DNA of 38,997 nucleotides from Gammaproteobacteria bacterium (GTDB lineage: Bacteria > Pseudomonadota > Gammaproteobacteria > Steroidobacterales > Steroidobacteraceae). Position 1 is the first letter of the stretch; every line of letters starts with the position of its first letter. The DNA is taken from NCBI GenBank assembly GCA_024642505.1, contig JAHEAZ010000018.1, forward strand, positions 1 through 38,997, in the 5' to 3' direction. Shown piece after piece: positions 1 to 3,982 of this stretch. Under the pieces are notes generated by a model. It did no database searches. It was not told the origin of the DNA and saw nothing but the letters and a program-made list of their open reading frames with translations. Both the position numbers and the translations under genes were made by a program.

Positions 1-65
1 CGTTCGCCGCCGAGGCCTTCGAGGGCACGTTGACCGACCTGTACGCGCCCAAGAAGGGTGCCTGA
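1..65 (+). CDS. C-terminal end of an unidentified protein (partial)
   Basis: The window opens inside a plus-strand reading frame (frame starting at base 3) that ends with TGA at 63-65. The visible tail reads FAAEAFEGTLTDLYAPKKGA. This is too short to assign to a family with confidence. It has normal codon use for this GC-rich genome and is followed after only 9 bp by the convergent stop codon of the DoxX gene, so it is probably the true end of a neighbouring gene and not a chance frame. No function is proposed. Confidence 0.5.
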   Translation, partial: FAAEAFEGTLTDLYAPKKGA

Positions 66-74
66 CTACCGGAT

Positions 75-578
75 TCAGTCGCGCGCGTAGCGAAGCCGTA
101 TCAGGTGGTCGATGCTGGCCCTGCCGGCGCCGCCGAACAACAATGGCAGCAGCATCACCAGCAGGATGAGCGGCAGCTTGTAGTTGCCGAAACCCTTGTC
201 GGTGATCGCGTAACCCCGGAGCAACTCCGATAGAGAGTTCCACTCTGCCGGCCAGTGGACTCCAGCGATCGCGACCACCGTCAGGATCAGCAGGCTGGTC
301 GACCAGAAGCGTGTCGCCAGGCCTAGCCAGATTGCCACACCACCGACCAGCTCGGACCAGGTCGCGAGAAACCAGCTGATCTCAACCGGCATGACGCTGA
401 AGGGAAAGGGAAAATTTTCCTGAACTGCCGAAAACCAGTTTTCGCCCTGGAGCTTGGCTAGCCCCGACTCGAAGAACTCCCAGCCGACGATGGCCCGCAG
501 CGCCAGTTGCGGCAGCCAGCTGCCGATCCTGTCGAGTGTCCGATGGGTCCTGTCAGTGAAGTCGATCAAGGCTTTCAT
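75..578 (-). CDS. DoxX-family membrane protein of a bufferin-type (DUF692/DUF2063) cassette
   Basis: The 167-residue protein starts at ATG 578 (MKALIDF); the frame stays open further upstream, but that part lies inside the DUF2063 gene. It has about four hydrophobic segments and the DoxX-like early motif in which a helix runs into [11 protein letters not shown], followed by the conserved region [16 protein letters not shown]. DoxX proteins are small inner-membrane proteins often tied to redox or thiol chemistry, but the exact reaction is not settled. It lies 13 bp downstream of the DUF2063 gene and is surely co-transcribed with it and the DUF692 gene. A DoxX gene is a recurrent companion of such pairs (the X of HvfABCX). 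Family assignment is firm; its role in the cassette is inferred from context. Confidence 0.88.
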
Positions 579-591
579 GTAACGCGTCCTG

Positions 592-1350
592 TCAGTGGCG
601 GAAGGTTCCGGGGACGATGCCGCGCTCATGCAAGTGCGCGAGCATGCGCGCACCCTGTTCGAACAGCTGCGCGGCGTTTGCGCCTGGCATTTCGGCGGCG
701 ACCTCTCGCAACAGTTCAGCACCAGTCGCAGCGCGTCCGGCCTCGATCAACACGAGCAACCGGGTAGTCGGGGCATCGACTTGCAGGAAGCCGACCTGAC
801 CGGAAGGCTTGCGATGGACCACGACGAAGGTGGCGACCGGCGGCAGCTCGACCGGCTGGAACTCCCTGGAAATCCGGTGCACCGGCCAGCGGTAGGCCAG
901 CGGCCAGGCAAGCGGCGAGAGAACGGGTCGACCTTCGAGCAGATCGCCGGCCGGGTCGATGCCGGCCATTGGCTCCTCGACCTCGGCGATCGACAGGGCG
1001 AGCTCGACCCACTCGTAGTGGGCCAGCTCGGTCAGGAAAGCCGGTTCCCCGACGGACTGCTCGCCCGCCGCCCCCAGCCACTCGACGAACTCGCGCGGCA
1101 GCTCGAGAAAATACGGCGTACGCGCCTTGTGCCCGGCATAGAAGCGGCGAATCACGTCACTCCAGCGCTCCTCGCCGAGGATGGCGCGACAGACCGGAAA
1201 GGTGCTGGCCAGCAGGTCGCGGACGTTGTTGAAGAACAACTCGCGGTAGATGTTCATGCGCCTCGGTTCGATCCCGGCGGGTGCCGGAACGCGTGCCGGA
1301 TCACGCAGGTGCGCCGCGAAATCGAGCTGCAGACGCTGGAAGTCCGTCAT
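592..1350 (-). CDS. DUF2063 protein, BufC/HvfC-type partner of DUF692 enzyme
   Basis: The 252-residue protein starts with [18 protein letters not shown]. Its N-terminal half matches the DUF2063 (putative DNA-binding domain, BufC/HvfC) pattern: a helical region with [17 protein letters not shown], then [13 protein letters not shown], and [17 protein letters not shown]. In bufferin and methanobactin systems proteins of this kind pair with a DUF692 enzyme and help it bind or modify the precursor peptide, despite the old DNA-binding name. The ATG at 1350 overlaps the DUF692 stop as ATGA, so translation is coupled. I chose this start over the longer open frame (which runs to 1488) because of that overlap and because the family begins here. 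Function in this organism is inferred from the pairing. Confidence 0.88.
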
Positions 1351-2225
1351 TCGGCCACCACCAGCTTGCGCTGCCCTGCCACATGGTGCCTGGACTGCAG
1401 CTCGCGGATCCGGGTTACTTCGCCGACCAGTTCCTTCAGCGGCGGGAAGTTGAAATCGCGCTCGAGCAGCGTGGCGACCGGCCCACAATGTTCATACGCG
1501 GCATCGAGCAACGACCAAACGTCCTCGCAGACTGCCGTTCCGTGGGTGTCTACGCGCAGGTCAGGTCCCTCGACGTAGTGACCCGCGGTATGGAGGTACC
1601 AGACTCTCCCGGCGGGCAGCGAGCGCAGGAATTCGGCTGGGTCATAGCGATGATTGGTCGCGTTGACGAAGATGTTGTTGACGTCGAGGAGCAGGCCACA
1701 GTCGGCTTCCTGCAGCACTGCTGTGACGAACTCGATCTCTGACATTTCGGCGCCCGGCGCTGCGTAGTAGGACACGTTCTCGATGCCGATCGGCCGCTCG
1801 AGGATTTCCTGTGCCCGGCGAATGCGTGCAGCGACATGGCGGACCGCATCACTGGTAAAGGGAATCGGCATCAGGTCGTACAGGTGACCTTCGTCCGTGC
1901 AGTAGCTGAGGTGCTCGGTGTAGGCGCGGATGCCATGTACGTCGAGGAAGTCACGGATGTCGCCCAGGAGTCGCTCATCCAGCGGCGCCGGTCCACCGAG
2001 CGACAGGGACAGGCCGTGGGCAACGAACGGAAAGCGCTCGGTAAACGCCCGCAGCCGCTTGCCCAGCGATCCGCCGACGCCAATCCAGTTTTCGGGCGCA
2101 AGCTCGAAGAAATCGACGCCTGCCGCGCCGTGGGCCTCGAGTTCGGCGAGCAGGCCGCGGCGTAGGCCAAGGCCCGCTCCGGCGACGGGCTGTTGCCTGG
2201 TGGCTTCTGTCGTGCGTGTCGGCAT
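1347..2225 (-). CDS. DUF692 metalloenzyme, BufB/HvfB/MbnB family
   Basis: This 292-residue TIM-barrel protein belongs to DUF692, the multinuclear iron oxygenase family that includes MbnB (methanobactin) and BufB (bufferin). Known members oxidise cysteine residues of a small precursor peptide into heterocycles that bind copper. Candidate metal ligands are visible in order: H70 in AHGLSLS, H105 in TEHLSY, E149 in IEN, D181 and N184 in DVNNIFVN, H212 in YLHTAGH, D226 and H228 in DTHG, and E255 in LERD. The set looks complete, so the enzyme should be active. Start ATG 2225 is preceded by a good AAGGA ribosome binding site six bases away. It leads the cassette DUF692-DUF2063-DoxX; the gene before it is DUF1841, 41 bp upstream, and not a bufferin precursor. 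Confidence 0.93.
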
Positions 2226-2266
2226 GTTGGTCCTTGCTGAATAAGACCCGCGCCGGCATGGAATTA

Positions 2267-2710
2267 TTACCGGCCCTGGGCGCGGCGCCGGCTCCGCTCA
2301 AGGAAGACCCTGTCGTCTGGTGGCCGGCCGGCACGCTGGGCTTCCCAGAGAGTCTCGCCCAGGCAATCAAGCAATACGTGCTCGGCGTCGTGGGTCTCAG
2401 GGTGGGTCACCAGCAGTTGCTCGAAAACCGCGCGAATCCCGCGGGGTCGATCCGCAGCGATGCTGTCGCGGACCGCGAGGTGCAGGCTCATGTGCAGGAA
2501 GGGATTGCCCTGGCCTTCTTCGGGGCTCCAGTCGCGGTCAAGCGAATCCGTATCGCCGCCCAGCACAGCGTGGTATTCGGGATGTATCTGCACCACCGCG
2601 GCAATCTGCGTTTCGAAAGGTTCGAGCGGCAGGCCGGCGCAGCGCCTGCGCCAGGCCTCACGCCATACGTGGCGCAGTGTCCCGCGATCCTGGTCAGCGA
2701 AAAATGGCAT
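2267..2710 (-). CDS. DUF1841 family protein
   Basis: The 147-residue soluble protein carries the DUF1841 hallmarks [16 protein letters not shown] near the middle and [18 protein letters not shown] toward the C-terminus, the latter followed by TLWEAQRAG. The family is found mainly in Beta- and Gammaproteobacteria and has no established function. The conserved histidines (HMSLH, HDAEH) could bind a metal, which is my inference. Its ATG lies one base after the nth stop codon, so it is translated with endonuclease III. It stops 41 bp before the DUF692 gene, so the bufferin-type cassette may be read through from this operon. Confidence 0.88.
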
Positions 2711-2711
2711 G

Positions 2712-3392
2712 TCAGCGGTGCCGACGTGCCGCCCGATCGGTTTTTCCGACCGGCGACTTGCCGGGAGTCTTGTGGCGGTACTCGCACAGGTCCGCGATCG
2801 GGCAGGAGGGGCAGTCGGGTTTTCGTGCCTTGCACACGTAGCGGCCGTGCAGTATCAGCCAGTGGTGGGCGTCGCGTCTGAATTCGGGCTCGACCACCTT
2901 CAACAGGCGATCCTCCACCCGGCGTACATTCCCTCCGGGCGCGAGTCCCGTACGGTTCGAAACCCTGAAGATGTGGGTATCGACCGCGATGGTGGGCTCC
3001 CCGAAGGCGGTATTGAGGACGACATTTGCCGTCTTGCGCCCGACCCCGGGTAGCGCCTCGAGATCCTCGCGGCGGTCCGGAACCCGTCCCGCGTGCCTTT
3101 CCAGCAGTTGCCGGGACATGGCTGCGAGGTTACTGGCCTTGGCCGACCACAGTCCGATCGAACGGATATAGGGGGCGAGACCGTCCGCTCCGAGCGCGAC
3201 GAGCGCCTCGGGGGTTCGTGCCGCGGCAAAGAGTCGTCGTGTCGCCTGGTTGACGCTCTTGTCGGTCGCCTGGGCCGAGAGGATCACGGCGACCAGCAGT
3301 TCAAACGGCGTGCCGTACTCGAGTTCGGTCGTCGGGAATGGATTGGCCGCGCGAAGCCGCTCAAAAATCTGCCGTCGCTTCGTGGCATTCAC
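2712..3392 (-). CDS. nth: endonuclease III (DNA glycosylase/AP lyase)
   Basis: Endonuclease III excises oxidised pyrimidines from DNA and cuts the resulting abasic site in base excision repair. The 226-residue protein shows the helix-hairpin-helix motif [11 protein letters not shown] with the catalytic lysine, then AVDTHIFRV with the catalytic aspartate, and the C-terminal [4Fe-4S] loop with cysteines spaced C-x6-C-x2-C-x5-C. The tail after the cluster is about 18 residues longer and more basic than in E. coli Nth. The start is GTG at 3392, overlapping the upstream rnfB stop as GTGA, which argues for translational coupling. The order rnfB-nth-DUF1841 resembles that of xanthomonad-like genomes; in E. 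coli nth also ends the rsx (rnf) operon. Confidence 0.96.
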
Positions 3393-3982
3393 GGCGTCGG
3401 CGATCGGTCGCCGGCCGGTCCCGCGGCCAGGTGGGCGTCGAGGGCCGTGCGCCAGCGCTGATGATCCCGCTCGCGCCGCTGCTGGCGGGACTCATGGAGC
3501 CCCCGAAAATGGGCGGCGCGCCGCAGGATCGTGGCGCCGTCCAGTACGACCGGAGGCAGGCCGGGAGCGGGCACCAGTTCGATGCAATCGACAGGACAGG
3601 GCGGCAGGCAGAGTTCGCAGCCGGAGCAGTCGGCCGCGATGACAGTGTGCATCCACTTGCGGGCGCCGATGATCGCGTCGGTCGGGCAGGCGTCGATGCA
3701 CTTGGCGCAGCCAATGCACGCGACCTCGTCCACCCTGGCCACTTGGGGAGGAACTTCCTGGCCGCATCCGGGATCGAGCGGCAGGGCCGGCGTATTGAGC
3801 AACCGGGACAAGGCAGCGATCACGCCGACGCCGCCCGGTGGGCAGCGATTGATGGCGGTCTCGCCGCCAGCCAGTGATTCCGCATAGGGCCGGCAGCCCG
3901 CAAATCCACAGCGTGTGCACTGCGTTTGCGGCAGGGCCGCGTCGATGCGTCCCGCGAGATCGGCTGCAACGGGTCCGGTCAT
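3389..3982 (-). CDS. rnfB: RnfB-like iron-sulfur protein lacking the membrane anchor
   Basis: The 197-residue protein matches RnfB/RsxB: an N-terminal 4Fe-4S domain with C22, C25, C30 and C47 ([17 protein letters not shown]), then two ferredoxin-type clusters ([16 protein letters not shown] and [16 protein letters not shown]). RnfB normally passes electrons in the membrane Rnf complex, which couples ferredoxin and NADH redox to ion flow or, as Rsx, reduces SoxR. Here the N-terminal membrane helix of classical RnfB is absent and no other rnf genes are present, so this is probably a soluble ferredoxin-like protein. I chose ATG 3982 over the in-frame TTG at 4006, whose codon lies nearer the metG stop. 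It follows metG by 28 bp and overlaps nth. Confidence 0.88.

Follow-up and report, generated by a model that had tools for sequence, protein, structure and literature searches.

The 38,997-nucleotide stretch from the start of contig JAHEAZ010000018.1 of a Steroidobacteraceae genome assembly (GCA_024642505.1), referred to here as the window, carries close to its start the genes hvfB, hvfC and hvfX, encoding a maturase of the MNIO (DUF692) family, its partner protein and a DoxX-family membrane protein. We consider it very probable that this set supplies the maturation part of an HvfA-type (captophorin/oxazolin) copper-peptide pathway that has been split, the HvfA precursor being encoded at a remote locus and sharing with it a promoter for an extracytoplasmic function (ECF) sigma factor. 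The canonical gene order, with the precursor gene directly before the MNIO gene, is absent from this locus; the pathway members are nonetheless present in the genome. The host assembly amounts to 3.1 Mb in 156 contigs, with 96.5% completeness and 4.2% contamination. The labels G, C and L denote genomes, contigs and extracted locus stretches, respectively; G000 is the window genome, and the first base of the window is also that of contig C20.

Gene content of the hvfBCX locus

75 to 578, minus strand: hvfX, DoxX-family membrane protein of 167 residues (NCBIfam NF050144 HvfX, 133.5 bits, cut-off 80; Pfam DoxX, 70 bits)
592 to 1350, minus strand: hvfC, DUF2063/NGO1945_C partner protein of 252 residues (NCBIfam NF050145 HvfC, 292.7 bits, cut-off 142)
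1347 to 2225, minus strand: hvfB, MNIO (DUF692) maturase of 292 residues (NCBIfam NF003818 HvfB, 412 bits, cut-off 360)
2231 to 2235, minus strand: AAGGA, ribosome-binding-like site before hvfB, read from the sequence
2245 to 2270, minus strand: putative ECF sigma promoter GTAATAA-N15-GGTC, a match to GWAATAW-N15-GGTC in the gap upstream of hvfB
2267 to 2710, minus strand: DUF1841 gene, conserved upstream neighbour (Pfam PF08897, 165 bits; nth-DUF1841-hvfB synteny in relatives)
2712 to 3392, minus strand: nth, endonuclease III gene that anchors the synteny of the slot before hvfB (Pfam HhH-GPD, HHH and EndIII_4Fe-2S)

An earlier note on this DNA had described a complete-looking DUF692 enzyme with all candidate metal ligands present, a DUF2063 partner coupled to it by ATGA and a DoxX protein, and the family models agree with all three descriptions. 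Apart from the equivalog scores, HvfB matched Pfam MbnB_TglH_ChrH (330 bits), and HvfC matched Pfam DUF2063 and NGO1945_C (95 and 89 bits) and was similar to structure 3DEE (E 8e-8); the ATGA overlap of hvfB and hvfC lies at 1347-1350. The hvfX start was placed at an in-frame ATG at 578, a longer frame (75-722) beginning upstream. The note had also remarked that the place of the precursor gene is held by DUF1841 with a gap of 41 bp, and this is what the coordinates give, the gap extending from the hvfB ATG (2225) to the DUF1841 stop codon (2267-2269). The gap is not empty, as it is occupied by the putative promoter, followed by the AAGGA and the ATG. The AAGGA had been taken as a sign that hvfB is expressed in its own right; the site exists, yet it is weak evidence for this, and the conserved promoter motif is stronger.

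A concealed precursor at the window locus was ruled out by the ORF (open reading frame) list, which held none, and by a Lys-Cys repeat filter, which found no ORF of at least 30 residues with two Lys-Cys pairs within 1.5 kb upstream of hvfB. A sigma-70 promoter driving hvfB was also rejected, as none was predicted in window positions 1-3500. DUF1841 is not regarded as a pathway gene. In the relative G001 the DUF1841 match before hvfB is absent and just an apparent short remnant is seen, and in G002 no hvfC match follows hvfB. At positions 1-65 (plus strand) the window holds the end of an ORF (...TDLYAPKKGA) convergent with hvfX, which by reading resembles the C-terminal part of a dihydrolipoamide dehydrogenase.

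A remote HvfA precursor

A DNA pattern for two adjoining repeats (CG-[DE]-G-x-CG) matched the entire assembly at two sites, each within the same ORF on contig C127; this ORF belongs to the following group of genes:

L036:6716-7240 (C127), upstream of hvfA: ECF sigma factor (sigma-70 regions 2 and 4)
L036:7237-7929 (C127), plus strand: DUF3379 protein, putative membrane anti-sigma factor (Pfam DUF3379, 119 bits)
L036:7998-8282 (C127): hvfA, precursor of 94 residues with four copies of EGKCG (NCBIfam NF050137, 37.7 bits, cut-off 19.5)

Against the equivalog model NF050188 the C127 HvfA scored 32.9, under the cut-off of 95. As judged by eye, it has a typical Sec signal peptide. No MNIO gene adjoins it, and the assembly holds two MNIO genes only, the hvfB of the window and a bufB on contig C137. 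The earlier note had left a choice between a substrate whose gene lies at another place in the genome and a different, unknown protein; the C127 HvfA favours the former and makes the latter unnecessary. Of the short exported cysteine-rich proteins that the note had proposed to look for, the genome holds this precursor and a BufA2 protein at C137. The gene hemB lies beside the sigma-antisigma-hvfA group in the opposite direction, and 3' of hvfA, on the opposite strand and just before the contig end, there is a gene that resembles rlmJ.

In G028 (L074:3827-4453, plus strand), G039:C38, G047:C25, G051:C49 and G059:C71, EGKCG repeats were spread over two contigs and HvfB was matched once; one maturase may serve two precursors in these genomes. 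The second hvfA copy of G028 has a hydrophobic stretch and an Arg/Lys-rich tail at its end.

Co-occurrence and linkage of hvfA and hvfB in relatives

The first set of genomes comprised 40 relatives, own genome included, in which HvfB-type MNIO proteins were counted at an identity of at least 59%. The EGKCG pattern occurred in 16/16 HvfB-type genomes versus 2/24 of the others, namely G003 (66% complete), where the repeat gene lies beside hemB, and G010, where the single match yielded no repeat ORF. In 15 of the 16, hvfA was on a different contig from hvfB, and it stood directly before hvfB in G038 only. The second set comprised 148 genomes of the order with completeness of at least 90%, with HvfB accepted at E <= 1e-80. 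HvfB was found in 65 of them and the pattern in 59, distributed as 51 of the 65 HvfB-positive versus 8 of the 83 HvfB-negative genomes (Fisher p 2.3e-18). Since eight genomes without HvfB also match, some of these 51 matches may be due to chance. A profile built from 16 HvfA proteins matched 13 of the 14 remaining HvfB-positive genomes versus 0/14 HvfB-negative controls, which brings the HvfB genomes of the order with an HvfA match, by pattern or profile, to 64 of 65.

Among the 51 genomes with both the pattern and HvfB, hvfA and hvfB lay on different contigs in 41, on the same contig more than 340 kb apart in three, and within 5 kb of each other in seven, six of which belong to one family, the other being G059. 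The 13 hvfA genes found with the profile were all off the hvfB contig, as scored by eye. The same-contig distances were 1.02 Mb in G070 and 2.1 Mb in G090; in G073, a single contig, 2.37 Mb separate hvfB from the hvfA that the profile supports, or about 1.7 Mb if the contig is circular, and the distance of 343 kb belongs to another pattern match without profile support. An assembly break masking an upstream precursor in the window was ruled out by the contiguous nth-DUF1841 and by the distant hvfA genes on the hvfB contigs of G070, G090 and G073.

A shared putative ECF promoter motif

The motif GWAATAW-N15-GGTC had three matches in the 3.1-Mb genome, and a reversed-pattern control had none. 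The sites lie before hvfB, before the sigma-antisigma-hvfA group and, on C120, before an msrP-like fragment. At hvfB the motif runs from 2270 to 2245, its first block sharing bases with the stop codon of DUF1841. This first block was seen before hvfB in relatives, and the second was added after comparison with the region upstream of the C127 sigma gene. The motif was present upstream of 11/11 sigma genes in relatives. Among the HvfB genomes of the first set it occurred at hvfB in 11/11 with DUF3379 versus 0/5 without (Fisher p 2.3e-4), the latter being G002, G004, G032, G035 and G038; G037, where it stands before the DUF1841 gene preceding hvfB, was counted as present, and in G034 the site lies within DUF1841. 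The chance expectation for the 600-bp stretches of the 16 genomes was 0.007 matches.

In a second survey 24 of 50 HvfB genomes were scored by eye, among the matches listed, G123 in part and with G073 outside. Within these limits the motif was found before hvfB in 10/24 genomes (G042, G046, G058, G090, G108, G117, G123, G138, G160 and G161), hvfA lay nearby and hvfB had no motif in six (G059, G066, G071, G110, G116 and G128), and neither was the case in eight (G041, G045, G047, G051, G053, G065, G070 and G084), with G051 showing the motif before the hvfA region only. In G090 both operons, 2.1 Mb apart, carry it upstream. The motif is thus common, not universal, among split genomes, and a shared promoter is not needed for the split state.

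The motif also precedes other candidate members of a regulon. The C120 msrP-like ORF is a fragment truncated by the contig end, with 57% and 35% identity over 81 residues to the proteins of G001 and G027, respectively, and in these two genomes the motif stands before full-length msrP genes (470 and 458 bits, cut-off 207). The MsrP of G001 contains the PF00174 domain (oxidored_molybd), and genes for this domain and for ferric reductases are reported in a few EGKCG clusters (PMC12452194). A separate hvfX of G005 (L136:152-790, plus strand; 234 bits, cut-off 80) occupies a third locus, preceded by a motif of its own, and the hvfBC locus of that genome showed no HvfX match. Second hvfA copies in G028 and G039 are preceded by the motif, as are genes for AhpC/TSA, thioredoxin-like and DsbC-like proteins in G028, G030 and G037. 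Among 51 motif loci of relatives beyond hvfB and the sigma genes, few precede a plausible target and most are chance-like or undecided. Look-alike proteins of about 145 residues without a Pfam match follow the motif in G033 (L127:143-583, plus strand) and G030 (L148:660-1097, minus strand), which belong to different families of the order; they are a possible further member of the regulon.

DUF3379 was next to the ECF sigma gene in 11/11 sigma-hvfA loci. Its hydrophobic stretch and an HxxxCxxC motif, found in 6/11 of the DUF3379 stretches with a simple regular expression that can miss starts and frames, suggest a membrane anti-sigma factor. DUF3379 was detected in 13/20 HvfB genomes and in 5/14 HvfB-less genomes (G007, G008, G013, G016 and G019), lying near a different MNIO gene in G016 and G019.

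It is also conceivable, with a low probability, that the pathway is split and that its motif is read by another sigma factor, or was inherited from a once-common upstream region, and not used by the C127 sigma. In favour of this, hvfB has no motif in several of the split genomes. However, the motif stands before the sigma gene itself in all eleven genomes, is missing from hvfB in the five DUF3379-less HvfB genomes of the first set, and recurs before msrP, the separate hvfX and the second hvfA copies.

Enzyme type and specificity residues

Both the family model and the specificity residues place the window set in the HvfB/EGKCG (captophorin/oxazolin) type and not among the bufferins. The earlier note had called it the BCX part of a bufferin/HvfABCX locus; the HvfBCX half of this name is borne out by the equivalogs, but the bufferin half is not, as the BufB model gave 248 bits on the window HvfB, under its cut-off of 310. 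A BufB equivalog with an adjoining DUF2282/BufA2 precursor, the mark of bufferin (Buf1/Buf2) loci, is lacking in the window and is found on C137:

C137, L001:2352-2612 and L003:6692-8295, minus strand: Buf2 locus with BufA2 (86 residues), BufB and a DUF2063 partner, by family models (BufA2, P0001, 90.9, cut-off 60; BufB 382.5, cut-off 310)

The window HvfB aligned to structure 3BWW with E 9e-72; this is a Histophilus MNIO protein given as 72.4% identical to HvfB (PMC13419390). In an alignment of 14 relatives, H70, H105, E149, N183, H212, D226, H228, E255 and D257 were invariant. Invariant His, Glu, Asn and Asp residues of this kind bind iron, a role predicted here for the set as a whole and not assigned residue by residue. 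Arg22-Arg23 and Asp257-Phe258 were also invariant (alignment A2, 14 rows). Substrates of the Lys-Cys (EGKCG) kind go with Arg15-Arg16 and Asp249-Phe250 in FonB, and those of the Cys-Lys (Buf2) kind with an Asp where FonB has the Phe, although mutants at the FonB positions mostly remained active, with altered tolerance (PMC13097082). The contact motifs are LRRG and ERDF in the window HvfB versus LRPA (Arg-Pro) and ERDD in the C137 BufB, the positions being equated by motif, without an alignment of FonB itself. On this difference HvfB was assigned to the unlinked HvfA and BufB to BufA2. HvfBC is reported to turn the cysteines of EGKCG into copper-binding 5-thiooxazoles, with HvfC being needed (PMC13419390, PMC13097082), and the system described here would probably do the same, forming 5-thiooxazoles on its Lys-Cys positions and binding copper.

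The presence of a Buf2 precursor in the same genome raises a further possibility, which we regard as slightly less probable still than a different sigma factor: that HvfBCX modifies the C137 BufA2 or other unknown proteins and that the EGKCG precursor is modified by nobody. The available text of PMC12452194 leaves the modification of unlinked precursors open. However, BufA2 is accompanied at C137 by a BufB and a DUF2063 partner of its own, the window HvfB bears residues of the Lys-Cys type, and HvfA accompanies HvfB in 64 of 65 genomes. A second full bufABC locus, of which the window set might be a degraded duplicate, had been anticipated in the earlier note. Such a locus does exist, but descent of the window set from it was ruled out by an identity of 41% between BufB and HvfB, different NCBIfam equivalogs and different substrate-contact residues; the ECF motif had no match at the C137 locus.

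Proposed pathway

Under oxidative or copper stress the C127 sigma factor would be released from the DUF3379 protein and would transcribe its own operon, including hvfA, as well as hvfBCX, driven by the ECF promoter in the 41-bp gap, and the msrP-like gene. As the motif is common to sigma-hvfA, hvfBCX and the msrP-like gene, the three would rise together, and precursor, maturase and periplasmic methionine repair would be jointly induced under envelope oxidative or copper stress. In the cytoplasm, HvfB and HvfC would oxidise HvfA at the Lys-Cys positions in its four EGKCG motifs; once modified, HvfA would leave via Sec and bind copper in the periplasm.

The slot before hvfB in other Gammaproteobacteria

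HvfB loci were surveyed in a species-level genome collection, taking the best 80 of 571 named loci; the survey overlaps the genomes of relatives (L169 is G005, L171 is G026 and L172 is G027). Among the 80, 51 carried an upstream ORF of the EGKCG type no more than 1.5 kb away, 17 had nth/DUF1841 upstream without such an ORF, eight were arranged otherwise and four were too short. The slot that is empty in the window was filled in seven linked loci with the order nth-DUF1841-hvfA-hvfB (L174 from Thiogranum, L184 and L191 from Thiohalobacter, L201, L213, L217 and L242). L248, at a contig edge, showed DUF1841-hvfA-hvfB, and ten further linked loci had nth before hvfA, at most 1.6 kb from hvfB, without a DUF1841 match. 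The comparison across relatives suggested in the earlier note thus found the precursor kept elsewhere in the relatives and the slot filled in other Gammaproteobacteria; its proviso that relatives might all lack a precursor and the DUF692 protein might have lost metal binding is contradicted by this and by the invariant metal-site positions.

The motif was present in 15/15 hvfA-less nth-DUF1841-hvfB loci versus 2/51 linked loci, and in these two (L199 and L226) it stands before hvfA. There was no motif at L178 and L190, where HvfX separates nth from hvfB. Six of the 15 hvfA-less loci are titled Woeseia/Woeseiaceae and one SG8_30 (the G005 contig, from the genus of the window). An HvfB tree of 26 split and 52 linked loci was rooted with four BufB rows, L186 and L202 being left out because of their short upstream stretches. 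It showed linked loci on the outer branches and three changes of the split label. A tree constrained to one split clade was not rejected (approximately unbiased test, p-AU 0.88) and had a likelihood 58.8 above that of the free quick tree, so that the quick tree as drawn is not optimal.

That the B, C and X genes are a decaying remnant, left jobless when the precursor went from the slot, has very little to recommend it, for, in spite of the slot being empty here and filled in other Gammaproteobacteria, and of the G002 hvfB that no hvfC match follows, the three frames are intact and score above their equivalog cut-offs, the active-site residues are invariant in relatives, and both the motif and the unlinked HvfA are conserved.

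Beyond the split pathway itself, we think it likely, with less confidence, that the operon was dismantled in one lineage, comprising the genus of the window, the Woeseiaceae and neighbours. The precursor gene would have been relocated to a sigma-antisigma operon, in most cases adjoining hemB, and the maturase would have been left in the nth-DUF1841 slot with an ECF promoter kept or gained, the hvfX of G005 marking a third locus. DUF3379, as the anti-sigma factor, would act as sensor for a periplasmic regulon in which copper peptides are joined to the repair of methionine sulfoxide and thiols, and a single HvfBC pair would act on one or more remote precursors.

Several observations weigh against the split pathway as proposed. 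The assembly of 156 contigs is fragmented and partly contaminated, although the identical pairing in G001 and G005 disfavours a binning artefact. In G041, HvfB is present and HvfA was not detected by pattern or profile. The motif counts are not fully independent, because the motif was derived from part of the same sequences. The motif is missing from hvfB in the split genomes G002, G004, G032 and G035 of the first set and G045, G047, G051, G053, G065, G070 and G084 of the second survey. The own msrP is a fragment of 91 residues, with 23 bits in NCBIfam (cut-off 207) and no Pfam match. DUF3379, found in 5/14 HvfB-negative genomes, is not confined to HvfA. Finally, the HvfB tree is weak, and we can therefore only infer that the linked arrangement is ancestral.

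Relation to known systems and significance

The window set consists of the same protein families as the hvfABCX (oxazolin) cluster of Haemophilus influenzae, whose HvfBC forms 5-thiooxazoles on HvfA (PMC13419390). The Haemophilus DoxX/COG3767/COG3220/DUF2063 cluster is dependent on RpoE2, an ECF sigma factor, and induced by HOCl, and RpoE2 also governs msrAB and mtsZ, which encode methionine-sulfoxide reductases (PMC7907618). However, in H. influenzae the four genes form one cluster and the anti-sigma factor is HrsE, of 67 residues, whereas the system described here has an unlinked precursor and, likely, a DUF3379 anti-sigma factor. The fonABC genes of Fontimonas thermophila (fontiphorin, captophorins) share with it an EGKCG precursor, an MNIO enzyme with Arg-Arg and Asp-Phe, and a PME1 partner (PMC13097082), yet they form a compact cluster, whereas here the precursor is distant and a separate putative promoter serves the maturase. 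The C137 Buf2 locus draws on the same superfamilies and has an exported cysteine-rich precursor, probably also copper binding; it differs in its BufA2 precursor, its BufB equivalog, ERDD instead of ERDF and the lack of a motif match.

Precursor genes without MNIO neighbours have been reported, and their modification by enzymes from a different locus was already suggested, in PMC12452194. For those stand-alone precursors the available text pairs no specific remote maturase or common promoter, and such a pairing is added here; in the portions available of the literature searched, the split arrangement, the shared promoter and a DUF3379 regulon were not found described. The same paper counts about 4,000 MNIO genes, in a large cluster, without any of the four main precursor types adjoining, and hundreds of other small cysteine-containing ORFs beside them. 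Many MNIO genes have no assigned substrate because mining for RiPPs (ribosomally synthesized and post-translationally modified peptides) seeks a precursor adjoining the MNIO gene, and pairing by promoter motif and co-occurrence offers a route to assign such orphan genes. The best reading of the sequence evidence is a division of the hvfABCX cluster in this lineage, with a common ECF regulon for periplasmic copper/oxidative stress keeping the parts together. This predicted regulon would join copper-binding peptides to periplasmic methionine repair, in parallel to and yet distinct from the RpoE2 regulon of Haemophilus, and would give DUF3379 a testable role.

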